In this document: positions 2,163 through 5,186 of the stretch, in pieces | Layout of the letters: every line of letters begins with the position of its first letter | How positions within the stretch are numbered: the stretch's first letter is position 1 | Assembly: GCA_030150795.1 (NCBI GenBank) | Contig: JASLFF010000382.1 | Coordinates: 1 to 5,186, forward strand | Length of the DNA stretch: 5,186 nucleotides | Direction: 5' to 3' | From: Terriglobales bacterium | Lineage (GTDB): Bacteria; Acidobacteriota; Terriglobia; Terriglobales; Gp1-AA117 | Position numbers and translations under genes: made by a program | The notes under the pieces: generated by a model | Databases searched by the model: none | What the model was told of the DNA's origin: nothing | The model's input: only the letters and a program-made list of their open reading frames with translations

Positions 2163-2381
2163 GGCGTTTGTATTGTAATCCTCATGCCGGACCAGATGAT
2201 TAGAGGGATTTGGAGTGGCTCAGTAGCCGCTACCGGAGCGGTTTTGTCCATCGCTCAGCAAAAACGTGTTCCAATTTTCGAATGGCGGGCGACTACTGAC
2301 TTACCCCGAGCATGTTGGTAACAACGATTACAACTTAAGTGCAAACTTTTATCCTGTCACGCTTTGGTGTGAGCTAAAAAC

Positions 2382-2396
2382 TGCAACAAGATTGCA
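2382..2396. promoter_or_regulatory. Putative operator 1, TGCAA-N5-TTGCA
   Basis: Bases 2382-2386 (TGCAA) and 2392-2396 (TTGCA) form a perfect five-base inverted repeat with spacer CAAGA. It is the outermost of three copies, centred about 227 bases upstream of the pilin start codon. The symmetry suggests binding by a dimeric regulator. The cognate protein is unknown. Confidence 0.5.
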
Positions 2397-2413
2397 AACA
2401 GTGTCAGTGAATC

Positions 2414-2428
2414 TGCAAGATTCTTGCA
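2414..2428. promoter_or_regulatory. Putative operator 2, TGCAA-N5-TTGCA (near-perfect palindrome)
   Basis: This is the most symmetric copy: TGCAAGA and TCTTGCA are exact inverse complements around a single central T at 2421, giving seven-base arms. Its centre is 32 bases, about three helical turns, from the centre of operator 1, so two dimers could bind the same face of the DNA. A second overlapping inverted repeat (GAATC-N5-GATTC) covers 2409-2423. Confidence 0.55.
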
Positions 2429-2472
2429 TGTAGTCAATCGTAATTAATGTGTGACCAATATGGGTACTTTAA

Positions 2473-2486
2473 TGCAAGCGATTGCA
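2473..2486. promoter_or_regulatory. Putative operator 3, TGCAA-N4-TTGCA
   Basis: TGCAA at 2473-2477 and TTGCA at 2482-2486 are separated by GCGA. This copy has a four-base spacer instead of five. It lies nearest the pilin, about 58 bases downstream of the centre of operator 2, and overlaps a weaker sigma-54-like match at 2461-2476. TTGCAA at 2482-2487 could also serve as a poor -35 hexamer with TCTATG at 2505-2510, so a role as a repressor site is equally possible. Confidence 0.45.
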
Positions 2487-2534
2487 AAGAATCTCAAATA
2501 TGTTTCTATGTAGATGATTCTACTAGAGTGCCTT

Positions 2535-2550
2535 TGGCAATCATCGTGCG
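2535..2550 (+). promoter_or_regulatory. Candidate sigma-54 (-24/-12) promoter for the flp pilin
   Basis: TGGCA at 2535-2539 matches the -24 element, and TGC at 2547-2549 sits at the correct spacing, with the invariant GG (2536-2537) and GC (2548-2549) separated by ten bases. The -12 element is imperfect (GTGCG instead of TTGCA/T). Transcription would start near 2561, giving a leader of about 55 bases before the pilin ATG. The three inverted repeats would then be centred near -172, -140 and -82, typical enhancer distances for sigma-54 activators. Sigma-54 control of pilins is known in other bacteria; its use here is inferred. Confidence 0.35.
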
Positions 2551-2615
2551 ATAAGACGAACGGGATGTTGAATAGACCTTTCGAAAAAACATTAAAGATA
2601 AGGGGAAATTTAGAA

Positions 2616-2933: not shown

Positions 2934-3515
2934 ATGTTTCCGATTCGCAGGCTATACGCTGCGGTCCAATTTCTTGCCGTTATGAACTTGGCTCAAATCA
3001 TTCCGACTCTGGCGACTGCAGTCGCGGTGACTGCCGCCATCACTGACGTCCGTGACCGGCGTATACCAAACCGGCTCACGTATCCCGCCATGATCGCCGG
3101 TCTTGTGGTGCAAACCGCCGTCCACGGTTGGCGCGGTCTGCTCCTGAGTCTGGCTGGCAGTCTTATCTTTGGCGGTCTTTTTTTGATCTTTCACCTTGTC
3201 CGCGCCATGGGTGCGGGCGACGTGAAACTGGCTGCAGCGCTGGGTTGCATCGTTGGCCCGGCAGGTTCCTGGCAGGTGATGTTTGCCACCGCCGTGGCCG
3301 GAGGCGCGCTGGCAATAGTAGTGATGATTTTCACCGGCCGTGTGCTGAAGACGCTGCGCAGCACCCTGGCTGTTGTGGGCTTTCATGCGGCCCATGGATT
3401 GCGCACCCATCCGGAAGTCAATCTGGATAACCCCGCTGCGGTTCGTCTGCCTTACGGGCTGGCGTTTGCGGCGGGCACACTGTACTGGGCATTTTTAATG
3501 CCCATGTGGAGATAA
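2934..3515 (+). CDS. cpaA: Prepilin peptidase, A24 family (CpaA/TadV type)
   Basis: This polytopic inner-membrane aspartic protease is expected to cleave the leader from Flp and pseudopilins. The first catalytic aspartate is in TDVRDRRIPN (D38) and the second in the GxGD motif, MGAGDVKLA (D96). Both sit at the cytoplasmic ends of membrane helices, as the family requires. Hydrophobic segments lie at about residues 20-37, 52-63, 68-90, 97-110, 112-135 and 174-190. At 193 residues it lacks the N-terminal cysteine-rich methylating domain of PilD-type enzymes, as is usual for CpaA/TadV. ATG at 2934 is chosen because GAGG (2922-2925) lies 8 bases before it. ATG at 2982 would give a 177-residue protein beginning MNLAQIIP, which also fits the family but has no Shine-Dalgarno. 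The next gene starts five bases after the stop. Confidence 0.92.
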   Translation: MFPIRRLYAAVQFLAVMNLAQIIPTLATAVAVTAAITDVRDRRIPNRLTYPAMIAGLVVQTAVHGWRGLLLSLAGSLIFGGLFLIFHLVRAMGAGDVKLAAALGCIVGPAGSWQVMFATAVAGGALAIVVMIFTGRVLKTLRSTLAVVGFHAAHGLRTHPEVNLDNPAAVRLPYGLAFAAGTLYWAFLMPMWR

Positions 3516-3520
3516 CGTTT

Positions 3521-4363
3521 ATGGGAACACGACGGCTCGGTTTTGCTTTGGCTGCTGCACTGGTAATTTCAATCGCCATCACTTCAATCTTTTACGTTCG
3601 CGTTACGCGCGCGCAATCTTCCGCAACGCCCTCCACGAGGCGCGTGATTGCGGCCGCAGTCGCCGTGCAGCCGGGTGTTCCGCTTACAGCGGAAAACCTT
3701 ACAGAGATCAACTGGCCGGTAAATGTGCCGCTGGAAGGACTGATCGAGAAGAAAGAAGATGCAATAGGCCGTGTGCCGATCTATGCCCTGGAGGCCAAAG
3801 AGCCTGTGCAGAAGCATGGCCTCGCGTCCAGTGGAAGCTTCGGCCTCTCTGCCAAGATTCCTGACGGCATGCGCGCTACTTCCGTGAAGACCAATGAGGT
3901 GATGAACATTGCCGGTTTCATCTTCCCCGGCTCGCATGTAGACGTGCTGGTAACGCTGCGCGGCGAAAACAACGCATCCAGCACCACGCACACCGTGCTG
4001 CAGGACGTCCAGGTGCTGGCGACGGGAACCAAGACCGATCCCGATCCCAACGGCAAGCCGGAAAATGTGAGCGTGGTTACGCTGCTGGTCACGCCGGAGG
4101 AGTCAGAGAAACTGGCGCTGGCGCAAAGCCAGACCACACAAAACCAGGGCAGCATTCATTTCGTCCTGAGGAACGGCGGCGATGCCGCCCGTCCGAATAC
4201 GGCTCCTATAGACATGGCTGAGCTGGCCGGAATATCGAAGAAAGTTCCGCAGCCGCTGTTGCACGCAAAGTCGGCGCCTGCGCCAAAGGCGCCTGAACCT
4301 TACACAGTGGAAACGGTTTCCGGCGGCAAAGTTACGGTTGCCAAATTTCCGGCAAATGATTGA
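3521..4363 (+). CDS. cpaB: Flp pilus assembly protein CpaB/RcpC
   Basis: This 280-residue periplasmic protein of the Tad apparatus is thought to support secretin assembly or gating. One N-terminal membrane segment (about residues 6-26, GFALAAALVISIAITSIFY) anchors it. A SAF-like domain follows at about 38-102 (RRVIAAAVAVQPGVPLT to LEAKEPVQ), then the RcpC/CpaB domain at about 109-220 with GMRATSVKTNEVMNIAGFI, PGSHVDVLVT and TVLQDVQVLATG, all typical of the family. The C-terminus (about 245-262) is Pro/Ala/Lys-rich and probably unstructured. ATG at 3521 is chosen because GGAG (3508-3511) lies 9 bases upstream, overlapping the end of cpaA. A GTG at 3506 in frame would add five residues inside the cpaA end and is less likely. 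The stop overlaps the candidate TTG start of the secretin gene. Confidence 0.93.
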   Translation: MGTRRLGFALAAALVISIAITSIFYVRVTRAQSSATPSTRRVIAAAVAVQPGVPLTAENLTEINWPVNVPLEGLIEKKEDAIGRVPIYALEAKEPVQKHGLASSGSFGLSAKIPDGMRATSVKTNEVMNIAGFIFPGSHVDVLVTLRGENNASSTTHTVLQDVQVLATGTKTDPDPNGKPENVSVVTLLVTPEESEKLALAQSQTTQNQGSIHFVLRNGGDAARPNTAPIDMAELAGISKKVPQPLLHAKSAPAPKAPEPYTVETVSGGKVTVAKFPAND

Positions 4364-5186
4364 AACGGGTTCCCGCGGTTAAAAGAGGAGGAGTCATTCT
4401 GAAACTCAACGGAACAAAACGGTTTTTATCCACGCTCGGCGGAAGCATTATTCTGTCTCTCGGTCTTTGCCCGGTTGCGATGGCCCAGGGCGCTGTTCCT
4501 CCCAGTACCCAACAGCCTGCCACTGCCGGGAAACAATCCGCGGCTGTAGCACCACAAGCGGTGTCCGCCGACAACTTTGCCGGCAATCAAGTCCTTCACA
4601 TTCTGGTAGGCCACTCGGTTGTTATCCGAACTGACGTCCGCTTGCGGCGTGTGCTGGTCGGCAACCCTGCAGTCGTTACCACGGCTACAACGGCCGCAAA
4701 TGAATTGGTTGTTACCGCAATTGCATCCGGCAGCAGCAGCGTGGTGCTCTGGCAGGAAGACAACAAATCCCGCATTCTCGAGATATTTGGGGACCTGGAC
4801 GTATCTCTGCTGCGCGAAGCGGTAGCTCGCGGCTTTCCAGATGAACAGATTCAGGTGGAATCAGAGGAGAACAGGATCGTCTTGACCGGAACGGCAACGG
4901 CGGCCCCCATAGCCGACCAGATTCTCAAAATGGCCGCGCCTTTTTCCAAAGAGGTGGTGAACTCGATTCGCATTGCGCTGCCGGGCCGGCAAAAGCAGAT
5001 ATTGCTGAAAGTAAAGTTCGCCCAGGTGGACCGTGGAAAAATGAGCTCCTATGGTTTCAATCTCTTCAGCACGGGGGCTGCCAACACAATTGGCGTCATT
5101 GGCACCCAGCAGTTCGCCCCGCCGCAGCTGGTGAAAAACGACAACTCCGGCGGCGGTACCGGTACCGGCACAGGTGTGCCGAGCAG
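4360..5186 (+). CDS. cpaC: Tad pilus secretin CpaC/RcpA, N-terminal part (runs off right edge)
   Basis: The visible 275 codons encode the export signal and periplasmic domains of the outer-membrane secretin through which the Flp pilus exits. Numbering from TTG 4360, a basic stretch is followed by a hydrophobic core (about 22-39) and a signal-peptidase I site AMA-Q after residue 42. Next come a linker rich in Ala, Pro and Gln, the pilus-secretin N-domain (about 76-145, LHILVGHSVVIRTDVRLRRV to ILEIFGDLD), a BON-like domain (about 146-206, with ENRIVLTGTA) and the start of the secretin region (QILLKVKFAQVDR, 213-225, then YGFNL). A Gly/Thr-rich stretch (about 262-273) follows. The start is unusual: TTG at 4360-4362 overlaps the cpaB stop but lacks a Shine-Dalgarno. 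CTG at 4399 sits 7 bases after GGAGG and gives a more usual signal peptide. The first in-frame ATG (4480) would destroy the signal peptide. TTG is given as the outermost standard start. Confidence 0.9.
   Translation, partial: MKRVPAVKRGGVILKLNGTKRFLSTLGGSIILSLGLCPVAMAQGAVPPSTQQPATAGKQSAAVAPQAVSADNFAGNQVLHILVGHSVVIRTDVRLRRVLVGNPAVVTTATTAANELVVTAIASGSSSVVLWQEDNKSRILEIFGDLDVSLLREAVARGFPDEQIQVESEENRIVLTGTATAAPIADQILKMAAPFSKEVVNSIRIALPGRQKQILLKVKFAQVDRGKMSSYGFNLFSTGAANTIGVIGTQQFAPPQLVKNDNSGGGTGTGTGVPS
4384..4393 (+). promoter_or_regulatory. Very strong Shine-Dalgarno (AGAGGAGGAG) inside the 5' end of cpaC
   Basis: This purine run contains GGAGG at 4387-4391. The seventh base after it is 4398, so CTG at 4399-4401 is ideally placed as an initiator, with ATT at 4396-4398 as a poorer alternative. 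No ATG, GTG or TTG follows at a workable distance in the secretin frame. It is the best ribosome-binding site in the cluster, which argues that secretin translation begins here on a non-standard codon. Confidence 0.6.

Follow-up and report, generated by a model that had tools for sequence, protein, structure and literature searches.

A predicted sigma54 promoter with upstream dyad sites at a Tad pilin gene of Acidobacteriota and a site of the same form at an exopolysaccharide-cluster gene

The window analysed here, the whole stretch of 5,186 nucleotides from a Terriglobales bacterium, carries on its forward strand the beginning of a Tad pilus locus (Table 1), in which the Flp pilin gene is followed by genes for a prepilin peptidase, CpaB and an incomplete CpaC, the gene order expected of a Tad/Flp locus. 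Profile searches returned no Pfam or NCBIfam match for the Flp protein itself, for which 522 homologues were found; of the 120 listed, many are named Flp pilin by their source, and some of the close ones among the matches listed are called Acidobacteria by theirs, including Candidatus Angelobacter. In the direction divergent to the Tad locus, profile searches identified an ABC transporter as well as a fragment with weak likeness to a methyltransferase. The flp leader is AT-rich, with a GC content of 34–40% in 100-base intervals (2301–2650) versus 52–63% in the flanking intervals, and a simple scan of positions 2160–2900 revealed no terminator-like site.

Table 1 Features of the flp leader and Tad locus in the window, and of two candidate regulator genes in the closest genome compared (G281, contig C9).
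Feature	Coordinates	Strand	Basis
Lone TGCAA half-site	2340..2344		
Site 1, TGCAACAAGATTGCA (N5), predicted upstream activating site	2382..2396		
Site 2, TGCAAGATTCTTGCA (N5), predicted upstream activating site	2414..2428		
Site 3 (dyad 2473–2486, N4) with flank, TGCAAGCGATTGCA-AAGAATC-TCAAA	2473..2498	+	
Sigma54-type -24/-12 element TTTGGCAATCATCGTGC, TTTGGCA-N5-CGTGC	2533..2549	+	By eye, then pattern search
Ribosome-binding region before flp	2599..2615	+	Read from sequence; alignable with G281
flp, Flp/type IVb pilin, 60 aa	2616..2798	+	Homologue search
Prepilin peptidase	2994..3515	+	PF01478, 6.6e-19
cpaB/rcpC	3521..4363	+	TIGR03177, 182 bits (cutoff 71); PF16976
cpaC/rcpA-type secretin, cut by window end	4360..5186	+	PF13629, 3.8e-13
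Response regulator	G281 C9:188481-189905		
bEBP2	G281 C9:220900-222018		

The inverted repeat TGCAA-N4/5-TTGCA occurs three times upstream of flp. A scan of the whole window returned the three copies at exactly the coordinates given in an initial annotation, and no further match; the additional TGCAA half-site reported there was also present, starting 42 bp before the start of site 1. The stretch 2390–2406, comprising the right half of site 1 and its flank, is repeated at 2480–2496, within site 3, with 82% identity. Measured from centre to centre, sites 1 and 2 lie 32 bp apart, about three helical turns, and the helical phasing proposed for this pair holds; it does not extend to sites 2 and 3, which are separated by 58.5 bp and hence by a non-integral number of turns. 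The repeats had also been claimed to be unlikely by chance, as was borne out by shuffling. Dinucleotide shuffling of the window, repeated 200 times, gave a mean of 0.04 matches and never three, and among 20,000 dinucleotide shuffles of the intergenic region (2163–2615) 67 had a single match and all others had none. With the word left free to be any 5-mer, 5 of 5,000 leader shuffles contained three or more inverted repeats of this kind, the fair rate to use for a pattern noticed after the fact. The three repeats are real and beyond chance.

Between the dyads and flp lies a sigma54-type -24/-12 element, absent from the initial annotation, in which GG and GC are found at the fixed 10-base separation in a TGGC/TGC context. 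Its TTGGCA is located 137, 105 and 47 bp downstream of sites 1, 2 and 3, respectively, and the element ends 66 bp before the flp start; repeated dyads at 47–137 bp upstream of a sigma54 element are the arrangement of an upstream activating sequence. With a matrix made from a sigma54 consensus the element by itself scores a modest 7.9, compared with 7.6 for the 75th percentile of random best scores and 8.5 for a reverse-strand control in the same leader, and the orthologous element in G281 scores 17.0 with this matrix. Upstream of 24 flp starts, a sigma54-like score of at least 12 was found in 5 cases, and in 1 case when the reverse strand was scored; these 24 leaders remained after de-duplication of 36 starts drawn by text pattern from 46 sources, loci with no recognisable start being lost. 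TTGGCA-N5-8-TGC has one additional occurrence in the window. The form TTTGGCA-N5-CGTGC has four matches in G281 (6.4 Mb), including one each at flp and at a small gene of an exopolysaccharide cluster, and none for the backward control. Over 13 genomes there were 15 matches versus 11 for the backward control, so that the element alone is not special and the argument is one of position, not of rarity. Ten of the 15 lie neither at flp nor at the small exopolysaccharide-cluster gene described below, and no dyad was found within 200 bases upstream of those ten. A simple scan of 2160–2900 for sigma70-like promoters found none, with 0.9 expected by chance. As judged from its sequence and position, the element is likely a sigma54-type promoter for flp.

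Among the genomes compared, G281 is the closest (flp E-value 1.7e-36), and no better flp E-value was obtained from partly overlapping sets of genomes drawn at the level of class (399), family (300 and 398), order (397) and genus (9); viral contigs and plasmids gave no additional flp orthologues. The -24/-12 element is common to the window and this orthologous flp, before which TTTGGCACAAGCCGTGC ends 69 bp upstream of the start; the corresponding distance in the window is 66 bp. Otherwise the two leaders align no better than shuffled sequences (128.5 versus 96.5–134.5 in 20 shuffles). The G281 leader includes a dyad with spacer 0, TGCAATTGCA, 50 bp before TTGGCA, compared with 47 bp for site 3, and contains neither an exact TGCAA-N4/5-TTGCA nor the extended site described below (best score 1.6 with the four-site matrix). 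Conservation in related leaders, the check that accompanied the initial annotation, was thus found in part in G281, where the sigma54 element is kept and a spacer-0 dyad is present, but the exact repeat is missing. Relatives of flp on contigs L002, L003 and L013 have strong sigma54-like elements and no TGCAA dyads, and the dyad site is therefore not common to all flp relatives. In L002 and L013 the strong element starts about 140–150 bp before the first flp copy, again with no TGCAA dyads; in these two contigs and in L001 flp occurs in tandem pairs.

A dyad located 32–62 bases before TGGCA-N7-TGC was searched for in 80 genomes, namely 79 of the 111 with a match to the regulator described below plus G528. 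Nine matches in eight genomes were obtained, compared with a single one for the backward control. Four of the nine are orthologous, being at the same small gene in G281, G508, G482 and G537, where it lies among exopolysaccharide-cluster genes. All four sites read TGCAAG-N2-T-TTGCA-N7-TCAAA and are placed 49–50 bp before TTGGCA (47 bp for site 3 of the window), and site 3 reads TGCAAG-N3-TTGCA-N7-TCAAA, in the register common to the four small-gene promoters. The remaining five matches, in G534, G471, G083 (twice) and G447, were left out of the support; of their genes, one in G083 and the one in G447 start like exported proteins.

A matrix built from the four small-gene sites only gave a score of 21.4 for site 3 and of 2.6 for the runner-up place in the window, and in 1.03 Mb of loci site 3 was the top match after the four source sites themselves. 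With the same matrix, the 12 bases after the site 3 dyad were equalled at 1 of 23,882 AT-rich positions and the whole flank, with the dyad left out, at 0.07% of AT-rich positions. The extended flank is missing at sites 1 and 2, which score poorly with this matrix. The extended pattern, derived from five sites including that of the window, was also searched with up to three mismatches in 21 selected genomes, giving 36 matches (4 exact, 1 with a single mismatch and 31 with three) versus 12 for the backward control; exact extended sites were found only at the small gene and are the same four. As this pattern was drawn partly from the window site, the independent test is the matrix from the other four sites. 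In G482 a second extended site, the one with a single mismatch, lies within the intergenic region of the first, on the opposite strand and 67 bases off (C45:81456-81481, minus, and C45:81549-81574, plus; locus L147), which suggests a divergently acting enhancer pair.

The open reading frame of the small gene encodes 68–93 aa (longest starts) and ends in a hydrophobic, Arg-rich tail. In the 72-aa protein compared with profile models, the tail follows FPESA and the only match was to LPXTG_anchor (E 0.0024), with no PEP-CTERM model matched at E 0.05. Small conserved proteins with an FPESAW...RRRR-type tail are encoded among exopolysaccharide genes in L063 (1106–1324, minus strand), L122, L124 and L125; the tail resembles a sorting signal, yet no PEP-CTERM model was matched.

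The exopolysaccharide cluster on contig C9 of G281 is XrtA-type, as deduced from TIGR03013 (458 bits, cutoff 393) and TIGR03006 (362 bits, cutoff 276); the other XrtA models stayed below cutoff, and no exosortase model was matched among 16 scanned open reading frames of this stretch. It encodes a histidine kinase, an NtrC-type response regulator and a receiverless enhancer-binding protein, here designated bEBP2, the Pfam domains of the three having been read on the G003 orthologues. The response regulator of G281 is thus encoded within an XrtA-type exopolysaccharide cluster. In G003 the orthologues (response regulator 55%, kinase 42% and bEBP2 54% identity) lie 6–10 kb upstream of flp on one contig, the kinase and response regulator at 6–8 kb, and in the 33 kb examined there no further gene of the G281 cluster was matched except another bEBP2-like protein. 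The three orthologues are also grouped in G148. The flp gene and the exopolysaccharide cluster of G281 are on separate contigs; a paralogue of the response regulator (51–52%) shares a contig with flp, about 40 kb away from it (L163 8382–9830, contig C7). Identification of the regulator as PrsR was rejected, the TIGR02915 scores being 351.9 bits (G281) and 328.2 bits (G003) for a cutoff of 502.6; the AtoC model outscores TIGR02915 on this protein and is also below its own cutoff.

Exact dyads are present 18 times in the G281 genome, versus 7 for the backward pattern, and three of them fall inside the exopolysaccharide cluster on C9, in a span of 15 kb. The extended flank is missing from 17 of the 18, and three have a sigma54 score of at least 12 within 300 bases. 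That all 18 form one regulon was rejected, as the 15 with listed surroundings are scattered, some inside long open reading frames. In 24 regions around the regulator or cluster, TGCAA was the commonest of 120 dyads of the same composition (9, with a mean of 0.78 and the next at 5), and ranked second of 1,024 words, after CTGCA, relative to the product expectation. Four of the nine came from G281 and G003, and with these two left out the count was 5 versus 4 for the next best; the enrichment is weak support and partly circular, because these genomes gave rise to the idea. In 30 shorter loci TGCAA, with a count of 3, shared first place. In the 24 regions the inverted TGCAA word was as frequent with spacer 9 as with spacer 4 (7 each), and CTGCA dyads at N4/5 were likewise over-represented. 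Between the kinase-regulator operon of G281 C9 and a divergent gene (L061 1480–1720), several TGCAA/TTGCA words occur together with a sigma54-like element (12.7), and autoregulation of the operon is possible. G537 has a dyad at a distance similar to that in L061, and another lies nearby in G519.

Activated proteins of the NtrC family bind upstream sites, oligomerise, loop to the sigma54 polymerase and open the promoter via ATP hydrolysis. By analogy, we infer that the three dyads would form the upstream activating sequence for an enhancer-binding protein of this family (AAA+ plus Fis-type HTH). This protein would occupy sites 1–3, the DNA would loop toward the predicted promoter at 2533–2549, and ATP hydrolysis would lead to opening of the sigma54 polymerase at flp. 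The likeliest candidate may be an orthologue of the response regulator, or of bEBP2, from the XrtA-type cluster of related Terriglobia, the kinase and regulator being assumed to be present in the organism of the window; binding, activation, the protein's identity and the signal it answers are all put forward on this footing. The proposal of an enhancer array for a Tad regulator, made with the initial annotation, is supported in so far as the repeats can now be specified as predicted sites for a sigma54 enhancer-binding protein. The site seems, however, not to be private to Tad pili, because its extended form is found at an exopolysaccharide-cluster gene in four related genomes. If one activator serves both genes, one signal would act on the Tad pilin as well as on a small protein of surface or sorting type encoded in the exopolysaccharide cluster. 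It seems probable, at roughly two chances in three on the sequence comparisons, that a single sigma54 activator governs both this protein and the Tad pilin, the latter through the dyads and the promoter at 2533–2549.

The dyads might instead be a sigma54 enhancer array for a dedicated Tad regulator, as in Desulfovibrio vulgaris, where according to the available text the sigma54-dependent response regulator DVU2114 targets Tad-like pilin genes and a separate regulator, DVUA0057, targets PEP-CTERM genes (PMC3333781, PMC4641369). Like the activator proposed here, DVU2114 is a sigma54-dependent NtrC-type response regulator acting on an Flp/Tad-type pilin operon, but it belongs to another phylum, and in D. 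vulgaris the pilin and PEP-CTERM genes are described as being under separate regulators. The match at the exopolysaccharide gene would then have to reflect convergence between paralogous activators whose HTH helices are alike. Indeed, the response regulator and bEBP2 end in alike helices, NISYKALLYKIKQ and KISYRALLYKIRD, and G281 has the response-regulator paralogue near flp noted above. However, such convergence fits poorly with a site 3 match that extends into the non-dyad flank in fixed register, and with exact extended sites at only one small gene in the 21 genomes searched, and a dedicated Tad regulator is considered doubtful.

An ordinary dimeric repressor or activator, using the dyads as operators on a sigma70-type promoter, would also suit their shape and the spacing of about three turns between sites 1 and 2. 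This appears improbable, the scan of 2160–2900 having given no sigma70-like promoter where 0.9 was expected, and the dyads being at 47–137 bp before the -24/-12 element, which are usual enhancer distances in the available text of PMC4641369. A mere compositional effect is the remaining explanation; the low GC content of the leader compared with its flanks and the any-word rate of 5/5,000 leave some room for it, but two copies of the TGCAA word were obtained in 0/20,000 shuffles and the register of site 3 recurs in four other genomes, making chance very improbable. The common sigma54 activator is preferred to all three.

For Tad pilin genes and for PEP-CTERM genes alike, sigma54 activators are already known. 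Haft 2006 described two elements before proteobacterial PEP-CTERM genes, motif 1 and, 32–92 bases from it, the sigma54-type motif 2; in the accessible part of that work motif 1, assigned to PrsK/PrsR, is a 17-base activator site that is sometimes repeated, ends in TTTACA and is reported in Proteobacteria only, the gene lies about 71 bases beyond the -24/-12 element, and the kinase-regulator pair is usually near exopolysaccharide genes (PMC1569441). The likeness to the present case lies in an activator site before a -24/-12 element and a pair near exopolysaccharide genes, whereas the site, the phylum and the pilin target are different here and the regulator is below the PrsR cutoff. The pepA gene of Aquincola tertiaricarbonis, a PEP-CTERM gene, is exopolysaccharide-linked and RpoN-dependent (PMC9850573), and so provides demonstrated sigma54 dependence for such a gene; in the text available pilin is absent from that system and its enhancer is a predicted one. 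Two-component activation of flp/tad, as proposed here, is found for PprB in Pseudomonas and for a system encoded beside flp/tad in Pectobacterium, in which an effect of the sigma54 activator VasH on flp/tad was not upheld by qPCR; unlike in the present proposal, the available portions of these papers describe no sigma54 dependence and mention no such dyads (PMC10418997, PMC3767616). Within the parts of the literature covered by the search, neither the extended site nor its common use by pilin and exopolysaccharide genes was found, and a full-text search of a limited collection for Acidobacteria, sigma54 and enhancer-binding protein gave no paper. The fuller proposal, for which the chances are judged to be even, is that TGCAAG-N3-TTGCA-N7-TCAAA is a new acidobacterial site through which one two-component sigma54 activator would join the Tad pilin and a surface protein from an exosortase-type exopolysaccharide cluster in one regulon for attachment, a role that is divided between two separate regulators in Desulfovibrio.

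Acidobacteriota are common soil bacteria, and their regulatory sites have been little described. With a defined site and a named regulator pair, an acidobacterial switch for surface attachment would become directly testable. If the proposal is true, the motif-1/motif-2 logic of Haft 2006 would apply outside the Proteobacteria as well, and to pili in addition to sorted proteins, and the same switch may turn on both pili and slime.
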